Assembly (NCBI RefSeq): GCF_001020565.1
Contig: NZ_LDAS01000001.1
Coordinates: 472,402 to 536,401, forward strand
Length of the DNA: 64,000 bases
Direction of reading: 5' to 3'
Source of the DNA: Maribacter thermophilus
Lineage (GTDB): Bacteria; Bacteroidota; Bacteroidia; Flavobacteriales; Flavobacteriaceae
Below the pieces are notes generated by a model, which did not search any database, was not told the DNA's origin, and saw nothing but the letters and a program-made list of their open reading frames with translations. Of the stretch, positions 2,788 through 14,418 are shown in pieces; position 1 is the first letter of the stretch; every line of letters starts with the position of its first letter. The position numbers and the translations under genes are program-made.

Positions 2788-4095
2788 TTAAACGTCTTTG
2801 CCTTTCATCATTTTGTTCCAATAAAGATAGGGCAGTCCATATTTCTTGAGCATCCATAATCGCCAATGTTCTTTTGATGAATCTGAAATGAGCATTCGTT
2901 TCAATTTAGGGTCGGGAGTAAAGTTATTGTTGTAATCGAACTCCGCGAGTACCATTTTACCATAGTCGGTTACCAACGGACAAGAAGAATAGCCATTATA
3001 TGACTTGTTGCCCAATTTATGGTGCTTTATCAACAGGTCAATATTGTCCACAACAATAGGTACCTGTTTTCTTATGGCCGCCCCGGTCTTCGCGGTGGGG
3101 AGGGCAGCTACATCCCCGAGACCAAAAACATTTGGAAATTTATTGTGTTGCATTGTCTGGTGGTTAACGTCTAACCATCCGGCCTCGTTCACTAAAACGG
3201 AGTCTCTGACAAATTTAGGGGCTACCGAAGGGGGGGCGGTGTGTAACATATCGTAATGTATGCCATACCGGTCTCCATCTACCGTTACTTTAACATCTTT
3301 ATAATTATATTGGAAAGAATCGTCTAGTCGGTCTTCATCGTCTTCTCCAGCCATTACTACACAACCACCTGCCGTGATGTCTTTTCCAAGTTTATACCAT
3401 GCAATTTGTTTGTCGGCATCTACGGCCACCAATTTATGGTAAAACCTTAGATTAATATCTTTTCTATCAACCACCTGCATTAAAGTTTTGGCGATTTTCT
3501 TAACACCGAAAATGACAGTGCCACTCGTGGCGAACACGACTTCCGTTTTTTTGCGGACACCACTTTTTCTAAAGTAGCTTTCGGCCAAATACATTATTTT
3601 TTGGGGTGCTCCACCACATTTTATGGGGGTTGTGGGCTGTGTAAAAAGGGCGGTGCCGCCTTTAAAGTTTTTTATAACGTTCCAAGTATGCTTAGGGTTT
3701 GTGTAGTTGCTACAGACAACGCCTTTATCCATTGCTTCACCTAAACCTGGCACCAAACTAAAATCATAGGCCAAACCGGGTACTACTACCAAATAGTCAT
3801 AAGTGATGTCGCCTTTGTTAGCAGTATGTACCAAGTTTTTGTCGGGGTCAAAACCCGTGGCCCTATCCTTGATCCAGGTAGCTCCCTTGGGCATTACAGA
3901 AGACATGGGTCTAGCTGTTTTTTCAAAATTATAAGCCCCTGCACCGACCAAGGTCCAAGCGGGTTGATAGTAATGCGTATCTGCCGGTTCGATTATGGCA
4001 ACATCTTTTGCCTTTTTTTGTTTTATTAGTTGAGATGCGACCATGATGCCGGCCGTACCACCGCCAATAATTAAAATTTGATGATGTGTGCTCAT
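2788..4095 (-). CDS. sqr: Sulfide:quinone oxidoreductase (type II, SQRDL-like)
   Basis: This 435-residue FAD protein oxidises sulfide and passes electrons to quinone, leaving sulfane sulfur as persulfide. It begins with a Rossmann motif GGGTAG (11-16). It carries TPIKCGGAPQK with Cys160, matching the catalytic-cysteine segment of mitochondrial-type SQR, another cysteine at 128, and one in SSCPLV near residue 373. NVFGLGDVAALPTAKTGAA is the usual C-terminal FAD contact. It has no signal peptide; the family binds the inner face of a membrane. It stands alone on the minus strand with its own promoter, and a palindrome 54 bp upstream (4149-4164) links it to the dioxygenase, rhodanese and exporter genes to the right. 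Confidence in the family is high. Confidence 0.92.
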   Translation of the reverse strand: MSTHHQILIIGGGTAGIMVASQLIKQKKAKDVAIIEPADTHYYQPAWTLVGAGAYNFEKTARPMSSVMPKGATWIKDRATGFDPDKNLVHTANKGDITYDYLVVVPGLAYDFSLVPGLGEAMDKGVVCSNYTNPKHTWNVIKNFKGGTALFTQPTTPIKCGGAPQKIMYLAESYFRKSGVRKKTEVVFATSGTVIFGVKKIAKTLMQVVDRKDINLRFYHKLVAVDADKQIAWYKLGKDITAGGCVVMAGEDDEDRLDDSFQYNYKDVKVTVDGDRYGIHYDMLHTAPPSVAPKFVRDSVLVNEAGWLDVNHQTMQHNKFPNVFGLGDVAALPTAKTGAAIRKQVPIVVDNIDLLIKHHKLGNKSYNGYSSCPLVTDYGKMVLAEFDYNNNFTPDPKLKRMLISDSSKEHWRLWMLKKYGLPYLYWNKMMKGKDV

Positions 4096-4119: not shown

Positions 4120-4164
4120 TAAATTTAGATGTAAAAATTTATTAATACTGTAACTTTTGTTACA
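4120..4164 (-). promoter_or_regulatory. sqr promoter with Crp/Fnr-type operator (regulon site 1)
   Basis: A perfect palindrome TGTAAC-TTTT-GTTACA lies at 4149-4164. Its centre is 29.5 bp upstream of the first base of TAAATTTA (4127-4120 on the minus strand), a near match to the TAnnTTTG -7 element. The predicted transcript starts about 4114, some 20 bases before the sqr ATG. Confidence 0.8.
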
Positions 4165-4240
4165 TAAGCTTTTATTGTGAAAACGGTCTGCCTATGTGTA
4201 AATAAGCAGACCGTAGTGCGTTTTATCTTTAAAGAGAATA

Positions 4241-4447
4241 TTACTCTTTGCTTTTATCGGATTTTATACCGAATACCGAATAGAGAGGACAAAAGCCGAT
4301 AAAACTGGTAAACAAAAATATAGCGGATAGCGCTATGAGTATATTGCCTAATGTTCCGTCGATTATTTTTAAGTAATATAGACTTATTACGACCAAGGCA
4401 ACGATAATTCTAATGGTGCGGTCGGTACCGCTCATGTTTTTTTTCAT
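4241..4447 (-). CDS. DUF2892 (YgaP-like) small membrane protein
   Basis: This 68-residue protein begins KKNMSGTDRTIRI and has two hydrophobic segments (about 13-28 and 33-52) ending in GFCPLYSVFGI. That layout and the CPLY motif are typical of DUF2892, the membrane domain often fused or adjacent to rhodaneses (as in YgaP). Its position beside sqr and a row of rhodaneses fits a sulfur-handling role. It has no palindromic operator, only a single GTTAC half upstream. The biochemical function of the domain is not established. Confidence 0.8.
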   Translation of the reverse strand: MKKNMSGTDRTIRIIVALVVISLYYLKIIDGTLGNILIALSAIFLFTSFIGFCPLYSVFGIKSDKSKE

Positions 4448-4631
4448 AGTAAATGGTTATTTATAAATTCAATCATTATGTTCATTACAGTTACCGCCCC
4501 GTATAGTCAGAACAAGTAATTAAAAACAACGTTCTTGTATAGAAAAGATTTTTTAAAGGTAGGTAACTGATATATAGTAGAATATGATAAATGTTAGGAA
4601 ACCAATCTATTGTTTTTAAGAGTTTTGGATT

Positions 4632-4675
4632 GTAACAATTGTTACTCTATAATTTAAAGTGAAAGGGTAACTTTG
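4632..4675 (+). promoter_or_regulatory. Promoter of fatty-acid hydroxylase gene with Crp/Fnr-type operator (regulon site 2)
   Basis: GTAAC-AATT-GTTAC is a perfect palindrome at 4632-4645. A consensus -7 element TAACTTTG lies at 4668-4675. Centre-to-element distance is 29.5 bp, identical to the other six sites. The gene starts at 4694, so the leader is about 13 bases. Confidence 0.8.
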
Positions 4676-4693
4676 ATTTTTAATTTAATTTGA

Positions 4694-5575
4694 ATGAAAG
4701 AGTATATAGACGCATTTATAAATGCTTTTTTAGGAACGGTTCAATGGACTTGGAAATCTATTTTGTTTGAGGTGCCCTGGTACACAAATTACTTTTGGGG
4801 CCTAATCGCAATTTCGTTGTTCGTATGGTTTTTAGAAATTTTGTTTCCATGGCGTAAAGAACAGGGGGTATTCAGAAAAGATTTTTGGTTGGATGCGTTT
4901 TATATGTTCTTCAATTTTTTCTTGTTTGCCATCGTAATTAGCGGGTTTTATAAGGTATTGCAAGTTCTTTTTAACGATATGGGCATTACGGCCAAAAGTT
5001 TGTCCATAGTGGATATTTCGGGGTGGCCAATGGGACTTCAGTTATTGGTGTTTTTTATAGTATTGGATTTTGTACAATGGTTTACCCATGTACTTCTACA
5101 CCGATATCCTGTTCTTTGGAGGTTTCACCAGGTACACCACAGTGTAAAGGAAATGGGTTTTGCTGCCCATTTAAGATATCACTGGATGGAAAACATTCTT
5201 TATAAACCCTTAAAGACCTTTGGTGTCATGATTTTAGGTGGGTTTGAACCCGAGCAAGCGTATATTGTTCATTTTATGGCCATTGCCATAGGTCATTTCA
5301 ACCATTCGAATATCAAGATAACATGGGGGCCATTAAAATATATATTAAATAATCCTGTAATGCACCTGTACCACCATGCCTATGATTTGCCAGAAGGCAA
5401 TACCCATGGTGTCAATTTCGGAATAAGCCTTAGTTTATGGGATTATATATTTAAAACGAACTATGTACCGGAAGATAGTGGAACTATACAATTAGGATAT
5501 CCTGGTGACGAGGAATTGCCCAAAGATTTTTTCGGACAACTGGTTTACGGGTTCAGAAAGAACAAAAAGAAATGA
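4694..5575 (+). CDS. Sterol desaturase / fatty-acid hydroxylase superfamily membrane enzyme
   Basis: This is a 293-residue multi-span membrane protein with the di-iron histidine clusters of the superfamily: HVLLHR, FHQVHH, HFNHSN and HLYHHAY, spread over about residues 130-230. Four or so hydrophobic segments (around 25-45, 70-95, 110-130 and 165-195) place the histidines on the cytoplasmic face. Members hydroxylate or desaturate lipids using O2; the substrate here is unknown. It is transcribed alone on the plus strand, yet shares the exact operator and promoter geometry of the sulfide genes, so a lipid change during sulfide exposure is an inference worth testing. An inverted repeat overlapping its stop codon may be the terminator. 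Confidence 0.8.
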   Translation: MKEYIDAFINAFLGTVQWTWKSILFEVPWYTNYFWGLIAISLFVWFLEILFPWRKEQGVFRKDFWLDAFYMFFNFFLFAIVISGFYKVLQVLFNDMGITAKSLSIVDISGWPMGLQLLVFFIVLDFVQWFTHVLLHRYPVLWRFHQVHHSVKEMGFAAHLRYHWMENILYKPLKTFGVMILGGFEPEQAYIVHFMAIAIGHFNHSNIKITWGPLKYILNNPVMHLYHHAYDLPEGNTHGVNFGISLSLWDYIFKTNYVPEDSGTIQLGYPGDEELPKDFFGQLVYGFRKNKKK

Positions 5576-5603
5576 CCGAGACTAAATAGGTTCCGGTCAT
5601 TTC
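5570..5603 (+). terminator. Hairpin overlapping the hydroxylase stop codon
   Basis: AAATGACCG (about 5570) pairs with CGGTCATTT (about 5595) across a 16-base loop. The stop codon TGA sits inside the first arm. The T-tract after it is weak, so terminator function is moderate. Confidence 0.45.
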
Positions 5604-5680
5604 TTTGAAAGTTGATAACGACTAGGGTAGGGGGCATTTTTAATATATCCTACCCTTTTGTGATTGTCTTTATAAGGGTT

Positions 5681-6304
5681 TTACTTTTCAAAAGTAATGG
5701 ACCAAATTCCGCGCACTTCGTTCGCAGAATACCCAGTGGCCAAATCGTTCGGATACAGTTGTTGCAACGAAGTCATTACCTCTGGTTGTATATCGCTGTT
5801 TGGTTTTCCATGGCATTGCAGGCACATGGCATTGGTGATCAACGGAGCGTAAAACTTGACAACATCGCCTTCTTCTTCCACAATAGGACTGTATTCTTTA
5901 CCTTCGGCAATACTACTTTTAAAATACGCTATATGTTCCAGTTCTTTTGCATTGGCCTTATTATTTGGGTTCCTAGGCTTGTCTGAAACCCTTTTTATAA
6001 CGGCATGGTGAACCGTAGCCATACTATCGGTAATGGGATAGGCTTGTATATTACAGAACTTTACGGCTCCCAAGGTACCTTTCTCTTGAATGGCCGCAAT
6101 TAGGTTTTTCCCCAATTGTTTCTGTGTGCTAGTGGCATATTTCATACCTATTTCTTGGTAGTTTACACTATCGCTGTTATCCACATTGCTATCGTGCAGT
6201 GTTTGTTGGTCTTCAACGGGCGACTCATCGAGCTGTTTTTTTTCAACGTTTTTACAACTGGCAAGTATCAAAACGATTACGGCTATTTTTAGAATATTTT
6301 TCAT
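5681..6304 (-). CDS. DUF3365 haem-domain lipoprotein
   Basis: The 207-residue protein starts at the ATG at 6304, giving a lipoprotein signal with lipobox LASC (Cys near residue 17). The C-terminal half has the DUF3365 (Tll0287-like) layout: KFCNIQAYPIT, RVSDKPRNPNN, and a single haem site MCLQCHGKP. The domain is found in membrane haem sensors and as stand-alone periplasmic cytochromes. A longer frame upstream exists but would overlap the preceding gene and hide the lipobox. The start codon overlaps the stop of the metal-binding gene by one base (TAATG), implying coupled translation. Its role in the sulfur island is unknown; a redox or sulfide/NO-sensing cytochrome is possible. Confidence 0.8.
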   Translation of the reverse strand: MKNILKIAVIVLILASCKNVEKKQLDESPVEDQQTLHDSNVDNSDSVNYQEIGMKYATSTQKQLGKNLIAAIQEKGTLGAVKFCNIQAYPITDSMATVHHAVIKRVSDKPRNPNNKANAKELEHIAYFKSSIAEGKEYSPIVEEEGDVVKFYAPLITNAMCLQCHGKPNSDIQPEVMTSLQQLYPNDLATGYSANEVRGIWSITFEK

Positions 6305-6573
6305 TATTTCGAAATTTTTCCGGTTGCACAACTTACAAAAGATTTGGCCTTGGTAAAAACCGTGTTTTCGGCATCTACCGATGGGTATCCAATATCTTTT
6401 AATCTTTCTTTTACCAATAGGGCATCTTCTGGTTCGTTACAGTCGAACGAAACCACAGAAGAGTTAACATCAACGGTCACATCCGAAATATTGGGTACTG
6501 TTGCCAATTTGGTAATGATAGTACTAGCGCATCCGCCACATTTTAAATTTTGAACAATAATGGATGTTTTCAT
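6304..6573 (-). CDS. Heavy-metal-associated (HMA) domain protein
   Basis: An 89-residue cytoplasmic protein with a ferredoxin-like HMA fold: an N-terminal strand, the metal site CGGC at Cys12-Cys15, and a DIGYPS turn near residue 65. Such proteins carry Cu(I) or another soft metal to a P-type ATPase, but no ATPase is adjacent. Instead the stop codon overlaps the start of the DUF3365 cytochrome (TAATG), which suggests they act together. An extra cysteine in a short C-terminal tail is not part of the domain. Confidence 0.82.
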   Translation of the reverse strand: MKTSIIVQNLKCGGCASTIITKLATVPNISDVTVDVNSSVVSFDCNEPEDALLVKERLKDIGYPSVDAENTVFTKAKSFVSCATGKISK

Positions 6574-6635
6574 AGTGTATGTTTAAATGCTGTTAATAAT
6601 CTTATACGTTTAATTGAATGCTACAAAATAGTGGC

Positions 6636-6983
6636 TTATTGGTTTCTTTGCCAAGCCATATACCCTCCTTTTAAATCTGTTAGAGAGGTAAAACCCATTT
6701 TTTCTAACATATACGCAGCTTTTCGGCTTCGGTTGCCTGATCGACAATAAAGATATATAGGTTCCTCTTTATTTAATTTACTAAAGAATTTTTGAAATGC
6801 CGTTCTGTTAAAGAAATCAACGTTGACCGCATTTTTTATGTGACCGGAATTATACTCCCCAGAGGTTCGTACATCTACCAATCGTACTTTCTTGTTTTTA
6901 ATTTCATTTTGAAACTCTTCTGCGTTCAGAATATTGATATTTTCTGACGATTTTGATTTAAAAAGGGATGAAAAAAATGACAT
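6636..6983 (-). CDS. Single-domain rhodanese (cytoplasmic)
   Basis: A 115-residue rhodanese-like protein with the full set of landmarks: RLVDVRTSGEYNSGHIKNAVNV and the active loop CRSGNRS with Cys80. It would carry or transfer sulfane sulfur as a cysteine persulfide. An amphipathic N-terminus (SFFSSLFKSKSS) could bind a membrane but is not a signal peptide. It lies between the HMA operon and the peroxiredoxin on the same strand, 62 bases upstream of the HMA gene. A strong hairpin at 7020-7056 separates it from the peroxiredoxin. No palindromic operator was seen in front of it. Confidence 0.88.
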   Translation of the reverse strand: MSFFSSLFKSKSSENINILNAEEFQNEIKNKKVRLVDVRTSGEYNSGHIKNAVNVDFFNRTAFQKFFSKLNKEEPIYLYCRSGNRSRKAAYMLEKMGFTSLTDLKGGYMAWQRNQ

Positions 6984-7019
6984 ATGTATATTATGTTAAG
7001 TGAAAAAATAACTTAAAAA

Positions 7020-7056
7020 AAGAAAACGGCCCAGTTTAAAAAGACCGTTTTCTTCC
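7020..7056 (-). terminator. Rho-independent terminator of peroxiredoxin gene
   Basis: On the minus strand AAGAAAACGG pairs with CCGTTTTCTT and is followed by a run of T. It lies 24-60 bases past the peroxiredoxin stop codon. Confidence 0.75.
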
Positions 7057-7080
7057 ATAACCAACCAAATAAAAACAATT

Positions 7081-7743
7081 CTAATTTAAGTTTTTCTTTG
7101 CCAGATACCAGTCTACCTTCTCTACAGTATCATCGGCCAATCTTGCATTTAGCTCATCTAAGGTTTTAGGTGGCGAAACAATTACTTTATCGCCCTTTTT
7201 CCAATCTAAAGGCATCGCAACCTTATACTTGTCAGACGTTTGAAGAGCTTCTAGCGCCCTTAGAATTTCATCCATATTACGACCTACGTTAAGTGGGTAG
7301 TACATAATGAGTCTTATTTTTTTATCGGGGTCTATAAAGAAGACCGCCCTAACTGCAGAGGTTTCGCTTTCGTTTGGTTGCAACATACCGTATAACTTGG
7401 ATATTTTCATGTCCAAATCAGCGATAATAGGAAAATCAAAATATACCCCGGTATTCTCGCGAACGTTTTGTACCCATCCCAAATGTGCATGTACACTGTC
7501 TATGCTGAGCCCTAGGAGCTCGGTGTTCAAAGCATCAAACTCTGGTTTTCTGGTGGCAAAACCACTCATCTCTGTTGTACATACCGGCGTAAAATCTGCC
7601 GGATGTGAAAACATTACAATCCATTTATCCTTGGCATAATCCGATAATTTTATTTTACCCTTGGTAGTATTGGCCACAAAATCGGGAGCCTTGTCTCCAA
7701 TTCTTGGCATTACTGTTACTTCATTGTTATCTAGTGTTTCCAT
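7081..7743 (-). CDS. 1-Cys peroxiredoxin (Prx6-type)
   Basis: This 220-residue AhpC/TSA protein has HPADFTPVCTTEM with the peroxidatic Cys55, and no second cysteine anywhere, so it is a strict 1-Cys enzyme. The C-terminal extension (PLDWKKGDKVIVSPP) is typical of Prx6. The family reduces peroxides; reaction with persulfides is known for some peroxiredoxins, but no claim is made here. Its promoter carries the same operator and spacing as sqr, so it belongs to the sulfide regulon rather than to the OxyR/Dps pair at 54-55 kb. It is probably monocistronic, with a terminator on each side. Confidence 0.9.
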   Translation of the reverse strand: METLDNNEVTVMPRIGDKAPDFVANTTKGKIKLSDYAKDKWIVMFSHPADFTPVCTTEMSGFATRKPEFDALNTELLGLSIDSVHAHLGWVQNVRENTGVYFDFPIIADLDMKISKLYGMLQPNESETSAVRAVFFIDPDKKIRLIMYYPLNVGRNMDEILRALEALQTSDKYKVAMPLDWKKGDKVIVSPPKTLDELNARLADDTVEKVDWYLAKKNLN

Positions 7744-7763
7744 ATTGTTTATGTTTTATACCA

Positions 7764-7807
7764 TAAAGATACCTGTCTTTACACTTAAGCACAGTAACTT
7801 AGGTTAC
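7764..7807 (-). promoter_or_regulatory. Peroxiredoxin promoter with Crp/Fnr-type operator (regulon site 3)
   Basis: GTAAC-TTAG-GTTAC occupies 7794-7807. The -7 element is TATCTTTA (7771-7764, minus strand). Centre-to-element distance is 29.5 bp. Predicted start is about 7758, some 15 bases before the ATG. Confidence 0.8.
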
Positions 7808-7830
7808 ATAACGTGTTAAAGAAAACCCAT

Positions 7831-7860
7831 AAAAAAAGGCCCTATATAGGGCCTTTTTTT
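7831..7860 (-). terminator. Terminator of the MBL-rhodanese / rhodanese operon
   Basis: A 30-base nearly perfect palindrome: seven A, GGCCCTATATAGGGCC, seven T. It follows the rhodanese lipoprotein stop codon at 7904. It could work in both directions. Confidence 0.85.
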
Positions 7861-7903
7861 ATAATACTAGAGTTTAGTTTGTGCTAACGAATTTTAATGG
7901 GAG

Positions 7904-8281
7904 CTATTTGTTTTTGGCATTCCATTCGGTGTAGCCACCAGCGTAATCGTAAATGGCCTTAAAACCTAATTCTTTTAATATTTGGCTTGCCTTGTTACTT
8001 CTACCTCCCACTTTGCAATAAACATAAACAGGTTTTTCCTTGTCTAATGACTGCACCTTTTTGTTAAAGGTTTCGGCGTCCAAAACATTTATGTTTATGG
8101 CGTCATCTATATGCCCCGCATTATATTCTTCGGGAGTTCTTACATCCACCAATTGAACATCTTTACCTATAGCTTCCGATTTCAATGTTTCTATATCGAT
8201 AATTTGTACTTGTTTATCGCTTTGCGAATGGCAAGAGGAAATTACTGTTATTAAGAAAAGTAGTATTGCAATGTTTCTCAT
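7904..8281 (-). CDS. Rhodanese-domain lipoprotein (periplasmic)
   Basis: The start at 8281 gives a 125-residue protein with a lipoprotein signal (AILLFLITVISSC, lipid-bearing Cys17). A complete rhodanese domain follows, with QLVDVRTPEEYNAGHIDDAI and active loop CKVGGRS (Cys89). A longer frame begins 93 bases upstream but masks the signal peptide. It would be a membrane-tethered sulfane-sulfur carrier outside the cytoplasm, complementing the cytoplasmic rhodanese genes at 6636 and 8384. It is the last gene of the transcript that begins with the MBL-rhodanese fusion at 10133; 102 bases separate it from the preceding gene. Confidence 0.87.
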   Translation of the reverse strand: MRNIAILLFLITVISSCHSQSDKQVQIIDIETLKSEAIGKDVQLVDVRTPEEYNAGHIDDAININVLDAETFNKKVQSLDKEKPVYVYCKVGGRSNKASQILKELGFKAIYDYAGGYTEWNAKNK

Positions 8282-8383
8282 TTCAAAAGTGTTTTTATGA
8301 ATAGTGTTGTTTAAAGAGAAAAACCGGTTTTTTGTGAAACTGGATAAAAGATATGTACTCTTTATACAATTCACTTGTTAAAA

Positions 8384-8707
8384 TTAATCAATATCAGGAA
8401 TAACGGTTTTCCCTTGCCATTCCAACATACCTCCCAATAGGTTGTATGTATTGGCAATACCAGTTGCTTCCAACAGGTGGCAAGCTCTAAGGCTTCTTTG
8501 CCCACTTCGGCAATACACGTAATAGTTCTTGGTTTTATCCAAGTTCTTGGCAGCCTCTTCAAATTTTGCAGGATCCATGACATTTATCAATAAGGCATTT
8601 TCTTGAACACCTTCCATCCATTCATTTGGTGTTCTAACGTCGATTACAACGGCATTTTCATCCTTTTCTATGAGTGATTGCCACTCGTTCTGATCTACAT
8701 TTTTCAT
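8384..8707 (-). CDS. Single-domain rhodanese (cytoplasmic)
   Basis: A 107-residue protein, essentially one rhodanese domain: VVIDVRTPNEWMEGV, then active loop CRSGQRS with Cys66, then LLGGMLEWQ. No signal peptide. It begins 16 bases after the MBL-rhodanese fusion, so it is in the same transcript. It most likely accepts persulfide sulfur from the fusion protein or from SQR products. Three separate single-domain rhodaneses within 2.1 kb, plus two fusions, is a dense cluster. Confidence 0.88.
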   Translation of the reverse strand: MKNVDQNEWQSLIEKDENAVVIDVRTPNEWMEGVQENALLINVMDPAKFEEAAKNLDKTKNYYVYCRSGQRSLRACHLLEATGIANTYNLLGGMLEWQGKTVIPDID

Positions 8708-8723
8708 TTATAACAATTGTTTT

Positions 8724-10133
8724 TTATAGAGTAGACGGACAAACGTAATTAGAAACCGGAATACCGGATTCTTTTATTTCCTTGAATCCACCTGTAACGT
8801 CTATTAGATTATGTATTCCTCTACTTTTTAAGATAGAGCTTGCGATCATACTTCTATATCCGCCGGCGCAATGCACATAAAAGGGTTTGTTTTCGGGAAA
8901 CTCCGATAAATGGTCGTTCAAGAAATCTAGAGGGGTATTATGTGCAGTTAATACATGTTCCGATAAGTATTCGCTTGGTTTTCTAACATCGAATACTATC
9001 GCATTTTCTTGTTCTATGGCATCTTTAAGCTCTTCTGAATTTACCTGGCTTACTGTATCGTATTCCATTGATGCTTTTTTCCAGGCATCGAATCCACCTT
9101 TTAAGTATCCTAAGGTATTATCGAAACCAACTCTTGATAGTCTTGTAACGGCTTCTTCTTCCAGACCATTTGGGGTTACCAATAAAATAGGTTGTTGTAC
9201 ATCGGCGATCAAAGCACCTACCCAAGGGGCAAAGCTACCATCCAATCCTATAAAGATAGAGCGGGGTATATGGCCTTTTGCATAATCGTCTTGATGTCTA
9301 ACATCTAACACAATGGCGCCGGTCTCATTGGCCGCAGCTTCAAATTCTTTGGGAGAAAGGGCTCTGGTACCACGTTCTAATACCGTTTTTATATCCTCGT
9401 ACCCCTCTTTGTTCATTTTTACGTTCAACGGAAAATACTGTGGTGGAGGCAGTAATCCTTCTATTACTTCCTCGATAAATTCGTCTTTGGTCATATCTGC
9501 CCTTAAGGCATAGTTCATTTTTTTCTGGTTGCCCAAGGTATCCACCGTTTCTTTCATCATATTTTTTCCGCAGGCGGAACCGGCTCCATGGGCCGGATAT
9601 ACGATTACATCATCTGCCAAGGGCATTATTTTTTCCCTAAGGCTGTCATATAAATAACCGGCAAGGTCTCTCTCTGTTAATTCCCCCATTTTTTGTGCAA
9701 GGTCGGGTCTACCTACATCACCTAAGAAAAGTGTATCTCCACTAAATATAGCGTAGTCTTTTCCATTTTCATCTTTCAACAAATAGGTGGTGCTTTCCAT
9801 GGTATGGCCAGGGGTATGTAAAACCTTAATGGTAAGGTCCCCTAATTTAAACTCCTGGTTGTCTTCGGCAATAATAGCATCGAAAGAAGGATTGGCGTTT
9901 GGGCCATATATAATGGGAGCTCCCGTTTCTTTTGCCAACGTAACATGACCACTTACAAAATCTGCATGAAAATGTGTCTCAAAAATATATTTGATCTTGG
10001 CATCGTCTAACTTGGCTCTTTTAATATAGGGGTGTACTTCGCGTAAAGGATCGATTATGGCAACTTCACCTTTGCTCTCTATATAATAGGCACCTTGTGC
10101 AAGACAACCTGTATAAATTTGTTCAACTTTCAT
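8724..10133 (-). CDS. MBL-fold / double rhodanese fusion, persulfide dioxygenase-like (copy 1)
   Basis: This 469-residue protein has an N-terminal metallo-beta-lactamase domain (about 1-240) with THFHADFVSGH (53-63), HTPGH (106-110) and an Asp near 133, the ETHE1-type mononuclear iron set. The aromatic at residue 59 replaces the histidine of true di-zinc hydrolases. Two rhodanese domains follow. The first (about 260-355) lacks the catalytic cysteine: its loop reads TPNGLEEEA. The second has CAGGYRS with Cys422. Enzymes of this family oxidise glutathione or other persulfides to sulfite using O2. It heads an operon with two rhodaneses and has a regulon-type promoter. Copy 2 lies immediately upstream in tandem. 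Confidence 0.88.
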   Translation of the reverse strand: MKVEQIYTGCLAQGAYYIESKGEVAIIDPLREVHPYIKRAKLDDAKIKYIFETHFHADFVSGHVTLAKETGAPIIYGPNANPSFDAIIAEDNQEFKLGDLTIKVLHTPGHTMESTTYLLKDENGKDYAIFSGDTLFLGDVGRPDLAQKMGELTERDLAGYLYDSLREKIMPLADDVIVYPAHGAGSACGKNMMKETVDTLGNQKKMNYALRADMTKDEFIEEVIEGLLPPPQYFPLNVKMNKEGYEDIKTVLERGTRALSPKEFEAAANETGAIVLDVRHQDDYAKGHIPRSIFIGLDGSFAPWVGALIADVQQPILLVTPNGLEEEAVTRLSRVGFDNTLGYLKGGFDAWKKASMEYDTVSQVNSEELKDAIEQENAIVFDVRKPSEYLSEHVLTAHNTPLDFLNDHLSEFPENKPFYVHCAGGYRSMIASSILKSRGIHNLIDVTGGFKEIKESGIPVSNYVCPSTL

Positions 10134-10157
10134 TAGGACACATTTTTAATTACAACA

Positions 10158-10201
10158 CAAAATTACGAATTGCAATTAACTAAAACGGTAACAATGGTTA
10201 C
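10158..10201 (-). promoter_or_regulatory. Promoter of MBL-rhodanese copy 1 with Crp/Fnr-type operator (regulon site 4)
   Basis: GTAAC-AATG-GTTAC lies at 10188-10201. The -7 element is TAATTTTG (10165-10158, minus strand), a full consensus match. Centre-to-element distance is 29.5 bp; predicted start about 10152. Confidence 0.82.
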
Positions 10202-10218
10202 ATTGCTTATAAACAAGA

Positions 10219-10243
10219 ACGCCCTGTAGGTTTTACAGGGCGC
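10219..10243 (-). terminator. Hairpin downstream of MBL-rhodanese copy 2
   Basis: CGCCCTGTA pairs with TACAGGGCG across a short loop, 21 bases past the copy 2 stop codon. No long T-tract follows on the minus strand, so it may be a weak terminator. Confidence 0.55.
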
Positions 10244-10263
10244 TAAAATTGTTGTTTTAAAGA

Positions 10264-11679
10264 TTATAACAATGTAGTCGGACAAACGTATTCCGATTTG
10301 GGAGTGTCTGTTTTAGAGATGTCGTCAAAACCACCTATAACATCCGCAAAGTCGGACCAACCCCTCTGTTTTAAAATAGAGGCGGCGATCATACTACGGT
10401 ACCCACCGGCACAATGCAAGATAAAGGTCCTGTCTTTTGGAAACTGGGCCAAATGCTTGTTGATTTCGTTAAGAGGCACATTAATGGCCCCTATAATATG
10501 TTCAGAATCAAATTCACTTTTCTTACGTACATCGATAATCAATGGTTGTTCGCTTTTTATGGCTTTTTCTAGGTCTTCTGCGGTAATACGGTCGGTAGTT
10601 TCAAAGTCTTTTCCAGATGATTTCCAAGATTGGAAACCTCCTTTTAAATATCCTACGGTACCGTCATAGCCTACTCTAGATAAACGCGTAATCGCCTCTT
10701 GCTCTTTACCTGGATAGGTAATCAATAATATTTCTTGTTTTACATCGGGAATCATTTCACCTACCCATTGCGCAAAATTGCCATCGAGTCCAATATTAAT
10801 ACTGTTGGGGACAAAACCTTTGGCAAAATCGGAAGCATCACGGGTGTCCAACATTAAAGCTCCTGTTTCGTTTGCGACTACTTCAAATTCGTCCGGCCTA
10901 AGGGCTTTGGTTGCCCTATCCATTATTTTGTCTAAACTTTCATATCCTTTAATATTCATGAGAACATTTTGGGGAAAGTACCCTGGTGGAGTCGTAAGGC
11001 CTGTCAAAAGTTCTTTAATGAACTCTTCTTTAGTCATATCGGCCCTTAGGGCATAATTTACTTTTTTCTGATGGCCAAGCGTATCGGTCGTTTCCTTGCT
11101 CATCATTTTACCACAGGCAGAACCTGCTCCATGGTTTGGATAGACTATTAAATCATCGCTCAAGGGCATAATTTTATTTCGTAGTGAATCATATAAGTGT
11201 GCCGCAAGCTTTTCTTGGGTCAGTTCGGATACTACGTGCTGTGCAAGATCTGGTCTTCCAACATCCCCGATAAATAAGGTATCGCCTGTAATGATACCAT
11301 GCTCTTTGCCATTTTCATCTATGAGCAAATAGGTGGTACTTTCCATAGTGTGCCCCGGTGTATGAATGGCCTTGACCTTATAATCGCCGACTTCAAATAT
11401 TTGACCGTCTTGGGCGATAGTGGCTTCGTATGCAGGTTTTGCACCCGGACCAAAAACAATTTCGGCACCGGCCTTTTTTCTTAAATCTAAATGGCCGCTT
11501 ACAAAATCGGCATGAAAATGTGTTTCAAAAACATATTTTATCTCGGCATTATCTATTTGGGCTCTATCAATATATGGCTGTACTTCCCTTAATGGGTCAA
11601 ATACTGCTGCTTCACCTTTACTTTCAATATAATAGGCCGCATGTGCCAAACATCCTGTATAAATCTGTTCTACTTTCAT
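10264..11679 (-). CDS. MBL-fold / double rhodanese fusion, persulfide dioxygenase-like (copy 2)
   Basis: A 471-residue tandem paralogue of the gene at 8724, with the same domain order and many identical segments (KVEQIYTGCLA, THFHADFVSGH, HTPGHTMESTTYLL). The first rhodanese domain again lacks a catalytic cysteine (loop TYPGKEQEA), and the second carries CAGGYRS with Cys423. The shared loss shows that the first domain was degenerate before the duplication. It has its own promoter with a variant operator (GTGAC half-sites), so the two copies can be tuned separately. Division of labour, for example over substrate or oxygen level, is not visible in the sequence. Confidence 0.88.
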   Translation of the reverse strand: MKVEQIYTGCLAHAAYYIESKGEAAVFDPLREVQPYIDRAQIDNAEIKYVFETHFHADFVSGHLDLRKKAGAEIVFGPGAKPAYEATIAQDGQIFEVGDYKVKAIHTPGHTMESTTYLLIDENGKEHGIITGDTLFIGDVGRPDLAQHVVSELTQEKLAAHLYDSLRNKIMPLSDDLIVYPNHGAGSACGKMMSKETTDTLGHQKKVNYALRADMTKEEFIKELLTGLTTPPGYFPQNVLMNIKGYESLDKIMDRATKALRPDEFEVVANETGALMLDTRDASDFAKGFVPNSINIGLDGNFAQWVGEMIPDVKQEILLITYPGKEQEAITRLSRVGYDGTVGYLKGGFQSWKSSGKDFETTDRITAEDLEKAIKSEQPLIIDVRKKSEFDSEHIIGAINVPLNEINKHLAQFPKDRTFILHCAGGYRSMIAASILKQRGWSDFADVIGGFDDISKTDTPKSEYVCPTTLL

Positions 11680-11704
11680 AATTGTTCGTTTAAGGTTTAT
11701 GGGC

Positions 11705-11749
11705 TAAAATTACTTATAGAAGAACTGTAATTCTGTGACTTATGTCACA
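11705..11749 (-). promoter_or_regulatory. Promoter of MBL-rhodanese copy 2 with Crp/Fnr-type operator (regulon site 5)
   Basis: The operator is TGTGAC-TTAT-GTCACA at 11734-11749, a perfect palindrome with G in place of A in each half compared with the other sites. The -7 element is TAATTTTA (11712-11705, minus). Centre-to-element distance is 29.5 bp. Confidence 0.78.
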
Positions 11750-11826
11750 TAAGGTTGTTAAAATTGTATAAAAAACAAGAGAAACAGAATGTTGTTTATG
11801 TAGAAAGTATGGATTTGGAAATGTAT

Positions 11827-12639
11827 TTATCGTTCTACAAAAAATTCCATATAAAATATAAAGGCCGCCATTACCAGTATAAAATAACCAAAGCCTTTTT
11901 TTAGTTTATTACCGTCTATGAAGTTACCTATATAGCTGCCAATAAAGATTCCTATTAGGGAAAGACTGGTAAAAAGGCCTAAAAATTGCCAGTCGATATC
12001 CATGGTAAGGGCATCTCCCAAAAAGAATCCCATTAATGATTTAATGGCGATTATTATCAACGAAGTACCTACGGCCACTTTCATTTCTACATTGGCAAGA
12101 ATTACCAATGCGGGAATGATCAAAAATCCCCCTCCGGCACCGATCATACCGGTAATGCCACCGACCATTAAACCTTCGGCCAAGATCAAAGGGTAGTTAT
12201 ATTTGACCTTGCCACTGGTTTTGTTTTTAATCTCTTTTTTTGTTTTTAGCATAGAAAACGCCGCAGGTATCATTAACACGGCAAAAAGTCCGAACATGGC
12301 CATACGTCGGGTAAATTCAAAGTCGCCTAGGTTAAAAAGAGTATCGGGAAGTATGGGAATAACATAGTGCCGTACAATGGTAACCCCTATAATTGCAGGG
12401 ATGCCGAAAACAACGGCAGTACGCCAGTCTACATAACCTTTTAGGTGTTGTTTCCAACCACCGACCAAGGCACTGGTTCCTACAATAAAAAGGGAATATG
12501 CCGTGGCGGCCTTTTCGTTTATGGAGAATAGGTAAGCAAGTACAGGTACCGCCAGTATGGATCCCCCACCACCTATGAGGCCTAATGATATTCCAATGAT
12601 CAGTGCGCTTATGTAACCAAATATCTCTATAACTTCCAT
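11827..12639 (-). CDS. TauE/SafE (TSUP) family anion exporter, probable sulfite exporter
   Basis: A 270-residue membrane protein with about eight hydrophobic segments in two similar halves. The glycine-rich repeats GLIGGGGSILAVPVL (near 22) and GMIGAGGGFLIIPALV (near 160) are the paired TSUP signature. Members move sulfite, sulfoacetate, taurine-derived sulfur or related anions across the inner membrane. Its placement between two persulfide dioxygenase-like fusions and the Crp/Fnr gene, and its regulon-type promoter, make removal of sulfite made by those enzymes the best guess. Confidence 0.87.
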   Translation of the reverse strand: MEVIEIFGYISALIIGISLGLIGGGGSILAVPVLAYLFSINEKAATAYSLFIVGTSALVGGWKQHLKGYVDWRTAVVFGIPAIIGVTIVRHYVIPILPDTLFNLGDFEFTRRMAMFGLFAVLMIPAAFSMLKTKKEIKNKTSGKVKYNYPLILAEGLMVGGITGMIGAGGGFLIIPALVILANVEMKVAVGTSLIIIAIKSLMGFFLGDALTMDIDWQFLGLFTSLSLIGIFIGSYIGNFIDGNKLKKGFGYFILVMAAFIFYMEFFVER

Positions 12640-12661
12640 GCCGTTTTACTTTGATACAGTA

Positions 12662-12705
12662 CAAAGCTATTTGGCCTACAGAAGCTAGGCAGTAACAATG
12701 GTTAC
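12662..12705 (-). promoter_or_regulatory. TauE/SafE promoter with Crp/Fnr-type operator (regulon site 6)
   Basis: GTAAC-AATG-GTTAC is at 12692-12705 and the -7 element TAGCTTTG at 12669-12662 (minus strand). Centre-to-element distance is 29.5 bp. It sits just past the stop codon of the Crp/Fnr gene. Confidence 0.82.
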
Positions 12706-12712
12706 ATAGTAT

Positions 12713-13345
12713 TTATAAATCTAATATTTTAATATGGTTTCGGTGTAGTTCTATTTTGCCCATTTGCTCCAATTTTTTCAGTAATCTAGAGATGACCACT
12801 CTAGAGGTATGTAGGTCATAGGCAATTTCTTGATGGGTATTTTGAATGGTGTCCTCTTTGTTGATGCGCGCTTTTTCTTTAAGGTATCCGATCAGGCGCA
12901 TATCCATTTTGTCAAAGGCGATACTATCTAAGGTGGTCAACAGTTCGTTTAAGCGGTTATGGTAACTGTTGAAAATAAAATTACGCCAAGATTTGTATTT
13001 AGCTGTCCATTCTTCCATTTTTTGAACAGGCACCATGATGAGTTTGGTATCCGTTTCGGCGATGGCCCTGATCTCACTTTTGGCATCGCCCATACAGCAG
13101 GTGAGCGTCATAGAACAGGTGTCTCCCTGCTCTAGGTAGTAAAGCAACAGTTCATCACCATCATTGTCTTCGCGAAGCACCTTAATGGCTCCCGAAATTA
13201 ATAAGGGCATGCCTTTAATATATTCGCCAATGTCCATTAATTTGTAGCCTTCCGGAATTTCTTTGTATGTGCCTACCTGAATTATTTCATTGATAAGTGC
13301 CTCCTCGAAAATATGACCATAACTTGCTTTTAGCTCTTGTATCAT
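12713..13345 (-). CDS. Crp/Fnr-family transcriptional regulator
   Basis: A 210-residue regulator with an N-terminal cyclic-nucleotide-type beta-barrel (about 20-120), a dimerisation helix, and a C-terminal winged helix (HQEIAYDLHTSRVVISRLLKKLEQ, about 170-193). It lacks the four-cysteine iron-sulfur pattern of Fnr, but has three cysteines close together (77, 83 and 84) in the effector domain. It overlaps the DUF983 gene by four bases, and that pair is headed by a regulon-type operator, so it probably controls its own synthesis. The matching palindromes in six other promoters of the island make it the likely activator. The signal is unknown; reactive sulfur acting on the cysteine group is a hypothesis. 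Confidence 0.9.
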   Translation of the reverse strand: MIQELKASYGHIFEEALINEIIQVGTYKEIPEGYKLMDIGEYIKGMPLLISGAIKVLREDNDGDELLLYYLEQGDTCSMTLTCCMGDAKSEIRAIAETDTKLIMVPVQKMEEWTAKYKSWRNFIFNSYHNRLNELLTTLDSIAFDKMDMRLIGYLKEKARINKEDTIQNTHQEIAYDLHTSRVVISRLLKKLEQMGKIELHRNHIKILDL

Positions 13346-13746
13346 TTTATTTGTTGTGACTTAACTTTTTCCGCTATTTTTTTATCATACTTAAAAAAGA
13401 AGTTTGCCCAAATAATTTTTGATACGGCAGCGATCCAAGGCATGGTCAATATCAATGTTATAACGATCAAGCCAAAAAGACCGGCAATGGACAGATCTAA
13501 CCTAAAAATAAGGGTTAGCACATATACAGCCACCGCTACTGCCACACCTACTGCATATGAAACATACATACTACCGGTATAAAAACTTGGTTCAATGCTA
13601 TATTTTAATCCACATTTGGGGCAACGCTCCTTTACCTTGTTAAAGTTACTTAATTTATAGGGATTTGCTTCTAAAAATGCGCCTTCATGACATCTGGGAC
13701 ATTTGATGAATATAATACTGTATAATTTAGAGCCTTTGCCGAACAT
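13342..13746 (-). CDS. DUF983 membrane protein
   Basis: A 134-residue protein with two CxxC-like pairs at the N-terminus (KCPRCHEG and RCPKCGLKY) and two hydrophobic segments (about 57-79 and 85-110). This zinc-ribbon plus two-helix layout is DUF983, common in Bacteroidota and alphaproteobacteria and without a firm function. It is the first gene of a two-gene operon with the Crp/Fnr regulator, whose start codon it overlaps by four bases. That makes its level follow the regulator's. Confidence 0.85.
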   Translation of the reverse strand: MFGKGSKLYSIIFIKCPRCHEGAFLEANPYKLSNFNKVKERCPKCGLKYSIEPSFYTGSMYVSYAVGVAVAVAVYVLTLIFRLDLSIAGLFGLIVITLILTMPWIAAVSKIIWANFFFKYDKKIAEKVKSQQIK

Positions 13747-13762
13747 ATTTAAAATTTTATTT

Positions 13763-13806
13763 CAAAAGTAAGGGAAGGCAGGTCTAGTATTAGTAACAAA
13801 TGTTAC
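13763..13806 (-). promoter_or_regulatory. DUF983-crp operon promoter with Crp/Fnr-type operator (regulon site 7)
   Basis: GTAAC-AAAT-GTTAC at 13793-13806, -7 element TACTTTTG (13770-13763, minus strand), centre-to-element distance 29.5 bp. This predicts positive autoregulation of the Crp/Fnr gene. Confidence 0.82.
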
Positions 13807-13890: not shown

Positions 13891-14418
13891 TTAAACCGTT
13901 TTGCATATAGAGCAATTGGGCTCTCCCGTTAACAAGCCATTTTTATCAAATTCATATTTGCAACATTCATTAAAGTTCTGTTTCAAGATATCTTTGGCCC
14001 TTCGTATTCTTGCTTTTACATTGGCCAAGCTTATATCTAAAATTTTTGCAGCCTCTTTTTGTTTGTACCCTTTTATGTAAACCAGTTCTATAACCTCTTC
14101 ATATATAGGAGGAAGATCGTTGATGAATTTATCAAAACAACAGATGTCTTGGTAGTCATGTTTGTCGACCTTTTGTACAACAGAGGTTTCATCGGTGTAT
14201 ACCGATTCTTTGTTTATGTAATTAATTATCTCGTTTCTGGCAATCTGAAAGACCCAGGCCTTTATTTTATCTTCATCTTTAAGATTGGGAAGATTTTTAT
14301 GGATTTTTAAGAAGGTGTTTTGAAAAATATCATTGGTAACGGTTTTGTTCTTTATCTTTTTTAGAATAAAGAAGTATAGTTCGTCTTTATGATGGTCCCA
14401 TATGCTTTGCGTTTTCAT
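13891..14418 (-). CDS. sigZ: RNA polymerase sigma factor, SigZ-like ECF type
   Basis: A 175-residue ECF sigma factor. Region 2 runs from about residue 10 to 75 (DIFQNTFLKIHKNLPNL, KAWVFQIARNEIINY) and region 4 from about 95 to 150 (ELVYIKGYKQKEAAKIL, NVKARIRRAKDIL). The tail has a cysteine pair and a later CxxC (CCKYEFDKNGLL, then CSICK), as in SigZ proteins. These could bind a metal or sense oxidation. No anti-sigma gene is adjacent. Immediately upstream on the same strand is a 14-cysteine peptide gene, separated by a terminator, so read-through may link them. Targets are unknown. Confidence 0.85.
   Translation of the reverse strand: MKTQSIWDHHKDELYFFILKKIKNKTVTNDIFQNTFLKIHKNLPNLKDEDKIKAWVFQIARNEIINYINKESVYTDETSVVQKVDKHDYQDICCFDKFINDLPPIYEEVIELVYIKGYKQKEAAKILDISLANVKARIRRAKDILKQNFNECCKYEFDKNGLLTGEPNCSICKTV

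Follow-up and report, generated by a model that had tools for sequence, protein, structure and literature searches.

Promoter sites at a fixed distance and a candidate Crp/Fnr-family activator of sulfide-defence genes in Maribacter thermophilus

A 64-kb stretch of the Maribacter thermophilus genome (the window) carries a cluster of genes with predicted functions in sulfide and reactive-sulfur defence, and seven short palindromes lie before seven of its promoters. With high probability these palindromes are operators read by a protein of the Crp/Fnr family (gene at 12713-13345), which would act as a class II activator of the whole set. The operator, its spacing, its conservation and the gene content of the set can be read directly from the genomes. 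It appears from these sequences that relatives of Maribacter switch on their sulfide-detoxifying genes together, through one regulator and a shared DNA motif at a fixed distance before each gene, and that many related species have retained this arrangement. For sulfide defence in a large group of marine bacteria, where searches of the open-access literature found no sulfide-responsive regulator described, the operator, the promoter geometry and the regulator can now be predicted.

Palindromes and promoter spacing

Seven GTRAC-N4-GTYAC palindromes with 14-bp cores were located between 4150 and 13806 of the window, six serving genes on the minus strand and one (4632) a gene on the plus strand. 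On the gene strand a TAnnTTTR octamer, taken as the -7 box, starts exactly 22 nt past the palindrome in 7/7 cases, the distance from the palindrome centre to the first base of the box being 29.5 bp at every site, and the start codons follow 16-25 nt past the octamers. A first-pass annotation of this DNA had proposed the same seven sites and the same 29.5-bp spacing; all seven are present and the spacing is exact, two of the intervals it gave (4149-4164 and 11734-11749) being the cores 4150-4163 and 11735-11748 plus one flanking base on each side. The looser pattern GTNAC-N4-GTNAC occurs eight times in the window against a mean of 0.43 in the shuffled window (100 shuffles, maximum 3), and genome-wide it occurs 34 times in 4.05 Mb, 7 of them inside the 9.7 kb considered here. 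The eighth palindrome of the window (29470) has other arms, GTTAC-N4-GTAAC, and no -7 box. The frequency of TAnnTTTR is 0.0017 per position per strand, and the chance of seven sites sharing one of 60 offsets is about 2.5e-18, a rough estimate that assumes independence.

The operator and its spacing were then followed in relatives, defined as the best 80 of 167 Crp-orthologue loci from named genomes (64-99% Crp identity; 1.496 Mb), all 80 of which were counted. GTRAC-N4-GTYAC occurs 273 times in these loci; six control patterns (four with other arms, two with other gaps) gave 0-9 matches. TAnnTTTR, on either strand, begins 22 nt from the palindrome in 218 cases, and every other offset between 0 and 59 was seen 0-7 times. 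When the arm was not preset, 114 palindromes with perfect arms had TAnnTTTG at a distance of 22, and the 29 other distances tried gave 0-13 apiece. Of these 114, 98 had the arm GTAAC. The check that the first-pass annotation had suggested, a search for operator and spacing in related genomes, therefore bears it out. Its judgement that the pattern is unlikely to arise by chance agrees with the window shuffles and with both the spike at 22 and the 2.5e-18 estimate, by which chance is ruled out as the source of the fixed spacing.

Among 216 unique aligned promoters, the core is preceded by T in 90%, and the third base of the half-site is A in 95% and 91%; where a -33 element would lie, 56% have G, and conservation does not exceed 70% in any column between core and -7 box. 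A matrix of 47 columns (site, spacer and -7 box) trained on these promoters scored the seven window sites at 29.9-36.1 (Table 1). The reverse strands of the 4632 and 7794 palindromes scored 15.5 and 0.1, the next match in the window -3.1, and the best match in ten random 20-kb sequences 8.0. Note that this test is not fully independent, since the training loci include one (L032) with a Crp 99% identical to that of the window. A site scoring at least 18 was present in 75 of the 80 loci (295 sites in total). In the five loci lacking one (L075, L089, L101, L104 and L105), a search with the 12 remaining genes of the cluster (SQR to DUF983) gave no match. For L101 and L105 there were weak LysR matches only, and the sequence of L089 stops at crp.

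In Flavobacterium psychrophilum the -7 box of sigma-A promoters has been mapped at -12 to -5 (PMC9723704). Together with the 29.5-bp distance this would put the palindrome centres at -41.5, the class II geometry claimed in the first-pass annotation. The window promoters are accordingly predicted to be of the class II activator-dependent type, with a putative dimer site near -41.5 of a primary-sigma promoter, and with a register fixed to the base pair the regulon can be read in further genomes of the group.

Two variants were seen in the relatives. A locus from a Tenacibaculum metagenome-assembled genome (L100:8548-9713) has GTAACATTTGTTAC seven times upstream of crp, in each case with TAnnTTAG 22 nt away, which shows the register being kept although the -7 box has changed; the last five copies are ~214 bp apart and are followed by near-identical sequence, forming a repeated promoter array. 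In addition, TAnnTTTG follows at exactly 22 nt after a few perfect palindromes with other arms, ATGAT (6) or ATGAC (3), in the 80 loci; these are perhaps sites of another CRP/FNR protein.

The Crp/Fnr protein and its link to the sites

The protein encoded at 12713-13345 matches Pfam PF00027 and PF13545 above cut-off, and Foldseek matched it to 3dv8, Thermus CAP and CRP, which places it in the CRP/FNR superfamily. The recognition helix reads TSRVVISR (R182, V183, R187) and the effector domain contains a C77-x5-C83-C84 cluster; R182, V183, R187, C77, C83 and C84 are kept in 80/80 orthologues. The genome encodes seven cNMP-binding proteins and the R-V...SR helix is found only in this one. Four others end in the helices VESCIRI, PESLIRT, PESLSRV and DTSLSRI, and the remaining two, a CBS/DUF294 protein and an acyltransferase, are without a Crp helix-turn-helix (HTH) in the part examined.

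The relationship between regulator and sites was further studied in 296 Bacteroidota genomes (which may overlap the named 80), of which 70 had a match to the metallo-beta-lactamase (MBL)-rhodanese fusion (E ≤1e-100) and 153 a Crp match (≤1e-3). For every MBL gene with its start inside the sequence examined, the preceding 300 bp were scored, a score of at least 8 being taken as a site; genomes were assigned to groups by the authors, and those without a Crp match reaching 1e-20 were classed as lacking a close Crp. A site was found at 20/31 MBL promoters in genomes with a V-type Crp, at 17/36 in those with an E-type Crp, at 6/10 in a V-helix 'LGG' group without C83/C84 and at 1/6 in the other genomes. 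In the genomes lacking a close Crp the result was 0/8 scored promoters, with three of the 11 genomes (G125, G249 and G319) giving no scorable promoter. The difference between the V-type group and the group without a close Crp has a Fisher p of 0.0012, with shared ancestry ignored. Half-site position 3 was A in 30/40 V-type and 12/34 E-type cases (p 0.0009, shared ancestry again being ignored and the matrix having been trained on V-type sites), a trend suggesting that homologues with Glu in the helix shift towards GTGAC half-sites. This Val/Glu trend would give a direct handle on operator choice. Within the genus, a Crp match at ≤1e-20 was found in 24 of 26 genomes, G315 being matched only by a 52-residue fragment; G300 (99% complete) has no Crp match at 1e-20, and has kept one MBL-rhodanese gene with no site there.

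The Crp/Fnr protein had already been named as the natural candidate in the first-pass annotation, and the linkage, the unique helix, the helix/half-site trend and the lack of sites in scored promoters of genomes without a close Crp all support that choice. The protein is very probably the reader of the sites, and these observations argue strongly for its binding to the operators.

Some of the data weigh against this reading. In V-type genomes, 11/31 MBL genes are without a site within 300 bp. In 31/80 loci the 1.3 kb before crp contains a site on the crp strand, the window being such a case through DUF983; the autoregulation proposed at first is thus compatible with the site before DUF983-crp in the window, but it is not general. 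The G300 genome, without a close Crp, has a stretch beside a Dps homologue (L292) that scores 20.0 without a proper -7 box, and in G319, a genome 64% complete in which no close Crp was found, a perfect palindrome with TATCTTCG at 23 nt lies 3' of the MBL gene. Sites are also present in the LGG group and in the V-type genome G107, both without C83/C84; use of the sites therefore does not depend on the CC pair. Finally, bare-palindrome counts across the 296 genomes do not separate those with and without the regulator, since G080, without a close Crp, has 13; the means were 6.5 in 23 V-type genomes and 3.7 in 13 E-type genomes of the same family.

Genes downstream of the sites

A total of 242 spaced sites (from the window, the relatives' 80 loci and three further stretches of the M. 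thermophilus genome) was assembled, and 236 had an open reading frame (ORF) of at least 55 aa within 400 nt. The downstream genes were sorted into single-linkage groups, each named from one member by Pfam. The largest groups were MBL/rhodanese (94), TauE (30), DUF983 (19) and those like sulfide:quinone oxidoreductase (SQR; 18), followed by peroxiredoxin, SulP, Crp itself and an outer-membrane efflux protein (10 each). Smaller groups were DUF2892/YgaP-TM (8), molybdopterin oxidoreductase (7), fatty-acid hydroxylase, Tll0287-like and cytochrome bd subunit I (4 each), YeeE-type transporter (3), HMA (2) and three singles. When full-length-type matches (>70% of length) were counted, 65 proteins matched the MBL-rhodanese fusions and 11 the window SQR, as against 18 in the SQR cluster. 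Judged by family, the genes after the 236 sites are largely sulfur-related.

Outside the window the M. thermophilus genome has 26 palindromes, three of which have TAnnTTTR at exactly 22 (before Dps, efflux and ArsR genes; Table 1). Dps homologues of 65-100% identity had the site in 8/8 cases across the 26 genomes of the genus, more distant Dps homologues had a match of at least 18 in 7/17 loci (one of them in G300), and cytochrome bd loci had such a match somewhere in the stretch in 15/21. The predicted regulon therefore also takes in Dps, the efflux operon and an SQR-like flavoprotein, and probably cytochrome bd. Thus the seven sites of the regulon first described are real, but the regulon is not limited to the cluster. 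The ArsR promoter was not counted as a member, its arms being direct-repeat instead of symmetric.

The region C1:2503316-2511980 (L027) constitutes a second sulfide-type cluster ~2 Mb away, in which efflux genes, the SQR-like flavoprotein and cytochrome bd each have a regulon-type site. At C1:3600436 and 3603294 (L030) a pair of similar blocks resembling promoters was noted, with GTGAC-N4-GTGAC as direct-repeat arms, one of them before the ArsR gene. Within the window, the reverse-strand match of palindrome 4632-4645 faces a DUF2892-like gene (4241-4447), and this palindrome may be a two-way promoter. MBL-rhodanese fusion 1 would be of the persulfide dioxygenase-rhodanese type, and fusion 2, judging from ORF spacing, is perhaps co-transcribed with the ORFs at 8384-8707 and 7904-8281, which were read by eye as rhodanese-like.

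Table 1. Predicted operators, -7 boxes and genes of the window, with further sites of the same genome (positions prefixed C1)
Feature	Position	Strand	Score or basis
Operator before sqr	4150..4163	-	matrix score 32.8
-7 box TAAATTTA, sqr promoter	4120..4127	-	
SQR-like protein	2788..4095	-	NCBIfam SQR_III_seleno 2.4e-66, 224 bits, below model cut-off 525
Operator before fatty-acid hydroxylase	4632..4645	+	matrix score 31.9 (15.5 on -)
-7 box TAACTTTG, fatty-acid hydroxylase promoter	4668..4675	+	
Fatty-acid hydroxylase family protein	4694..5575	+	Pfam
Operator before peroxiredoxin	7794..7807	-	matrix score 36.1
-7 box TATCTTTA, peroxiredoxin promoter	7764..7771	-	
Peroxiredoxin	7081..7743	-	NCBIfam/Pfam
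Rhodanese-like ORF, downstream of peroxiredoxin	6636..6983	-	by eye
HMA protein, downstream of peroxiredoxin	6304..6573	-	
Tll0287-like protein, downstream of peroxiredoxin	5681..6304	-	
Operator before MBL-rhodanese 2	10188..10201	-	matrix score 36.0
-7 box TAATTTTG, MBL-rhodanese 2 promoter	10158..10165	-	
MBL-rhodanese fusion 2	8724..10133	-	Pfam
Operator (GTGAC...GTCAC) before MBL-rhodanese 1	11735..11748	-	matrix score 30.3
-7 box TAATTTTA, MBL-rhodanese 1 promoter	11705..11712	-	
MBL-rhodanese fusion 1	10264..11679	-	Pfam Lactamase_B + Rhodanese
Operator before tauE/safE	12692..12705	-	matrix score 34.9
-7 box TAGCTTTG, tauE/safE promoter	12662..12669	-	
TauE/SafE exporter family protein	11827..12639	-	Pfam
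Operator before DUF983-crp	13793..13806	-	matrix score 29.9
-7 box TACTTTTG, DUF983-crp promoter	13763..13770	-	
DUF983 protein, overlaps crp start	13342..13746	-	Pfam
Crp/Fnr-family regulator, 210 aa	12713..13345	-	Pfam HTH_Crp_2 + cNMP_binding, CRP/FNR fold
Site before Dps	C1:348764		
Site before outer-membrane efflux protein, then HlyD gene, then apparent RND gene	C1:2503316		
One-mismatch site before Pyr_redox_2 flavoprotein, read as SQR-like	C1:2505358		score 20.7
GTAACCCAGGTTAC before cytochrome bd subunits I and II, -7 box at 21	C1:2511967		
Site before ArsR gene	C1:3600436		score 24.7, direct-repeat arms

Proposed mechanism, known systems and alternatives

In the proposed mechanism a Crp/Fnr dimer would bind TGTAAC-N4-GTTAC centred at -41.5 of sigma-A promoters, contact RNA polymerase and activate transcription as a class II activator, in the manner of NtcA or CRP. 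The regulon would serve sulfide and reactive-sulfur defence through SQR, the MBL-rhodanese fusions, rhodaneses, TauE and peroxiredoxin, together with the Dps, efflux, SQR-like and probably cytochrome bd genes elsewhere. Persulfides are substrates of persulfide dioxygenases. The signal would be sulfide, or persulfides made from it by SQR; the gene content is what points to sulfide here, and reactive sulfur is proposed as the signal with moderate confidence, perhaps acting through C77/C83/C84. The segment that aligns with the effector-pocket part of NtcA and CRP reads C-S-M-T-L-T-C-C and includes all three cysteines, with no Cys before C77 in the sequence. A structure model (the second; mean predicted local distance difference test score (pLDDT) 87.6) places C83/C84 in a short effector-domain helix within block 81-90, where the pLDDT is 66; an earlier model, at 69.5, could not be used over residues 71-91. 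This alignment and the modelled helix would make a thiol sensor attractive, whereas the similar sites found with homologues that have no C83/C84 (the LGG group and G107) speak against one. The Cys cluster would give a direct handle on sensing.

The closest parallel in geometry is offered by NtcA, which binds GTAN8TAC centred at about -41.5, with one site 22 nt from the -10 box (PMC3898017). NtcA shares with the window Crp the CRP fold, an R-V...R helix and the class II centre, and the GTAAC/GTTAC arms fit its motif. However, it is distant by sequence (phmmer 1.1e-8) and has other targets, and NtcA responds to 2-oxoglutarate, whereas the window Crp has its Cys-containing segment in the aligned stretch. 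Orthology to NtcA or CRP is not indicated by NCBIfam (NtcA_cyano 37.9 bits against a cut-off of 244.95; CRP 48.5 against 266). FNR does not fit either, the half-site being GTAAC instead of the TTGAT type and the helix having Val instead of Glu, and the N-terminal Fe-S Cys set of FNR is missing, as no cysteine precedes C77 in the window protein. For HcpR2, with Glu181 replaced by Pro, Rodionov and co-workers predicted the motif GTAACnnnnGTTAC, and residues 180 and 181 correlate with bases in that work (PMC1274295). The window system resembles HcpR2 in this predicted motif and in the replacement of Glu181, but has Val where HcpR2 has Pro; Val, instead of Pro/Ser/Gln, was found in 80/80 orthologues. 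The main target of HcpR2 is hcp, which was not recognised among the downstream groups of the spaced sites as named by their representatives. The best PDB match by both sequence and fold is 3dv8, a Crp/Fnr protein from Eubacterium rectale with Cys aligned with C77 and C83; it differs in having Glu in the helix (HREVITR), and its title says only 'putative transcriptional regulator'.

Sulfide-oxidation and persulfide genes are controlled by CstR, SqrR/BigR and FisR, which belong to protein families other than CRP/FNR; the system described here differs from them in its CRP/FNR protein and class II site. In the portion of a 2022 review of reactive-sulfur sensing that was searched by term (PMC9774590), CstR, SqrR and BigR are named, FNR, Bacteroid- and Flavobact- are absent, and Crp appears only in two reference titles. 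No CRP/FNR sulfide regulon of Bacteroidota was found described in the open-access literature, for which listings were scanned and which leaves most subscription papers outside. The data are consistent with a familiar protein fold and promoter type put to a new regulon, possibly with a new signal. A more tentative idea, plausible but a little short of evenly balanced, is that a Bacteroidota CRP/FNR lineage turned its cyclic-nucleotide cassette into a C-x5-CC cluster that senses persulfides directly and switches one class II regulon, as a counterpart of the CstR/SqrR/FisR circuits.

Other interpretations of these data can be weighed. The Crp protein could read the sites and sense oxygen/redox, peroxide or nitric oxide, the sulfur genes then belonging to a broader redox response; a regulon of that kind would also accommodate Dps, peroxiredoxin and cytochrome bd, and HcpR2, for which the same motif is predicted, is linked to nitrogen-oxide metabolism (PMC1274295). 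This is considered unlikely, as the largest downstream group is MBL/rhodanese, including the 65 proteins matched over 70% of length, followed by TauE, and as SQR-like, SulP, molybdopterin oxidoreductase and YeeE-type genes are also found downstream; a weaker point is that HcpR is not among the PDB sequence matches listed. It could also be that unliganded Crp represses these promoters and is released by the signal, since some CRP/FNR proteins do repress, and NtcA represses some promoters from boxes downstream of -35 (PMC3898017). Against this, the site centre keeps one base-pair register at -41.5 in 218 cases, as expected of RNA polymerase contacts, and the -33 element is kept only in part. Repression is therefore improbable, and there are good grounds to predict activation by Crp instead.

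That the sites are read by a different protein has even less in its favour. With seven cNMP_binding proteins in the genome, another Crp/Fnr paralogue, such as the FNR-like protein at C1:2456781, might be the reader; this is very improbable, and the paralogues were rejected on their different helices or, for two of them, the missing Crp HTH noted above. A gene for a SigZ-like extracytoplasmic function (ECF) sigma factor (13891-14418) adjoins the cluster. ECF -35 elements can end in AAC, and GTAAC might on that account be the -35 element of this factor. This can be virtually dismissed and SigZ was rejected as the reader: the sites have two symmetric arms and lie 22 nt from a sigma-A type -7 box, and the sigma gene was found in 1/80 relatives' loci, the sites being present in 74 loci without it.

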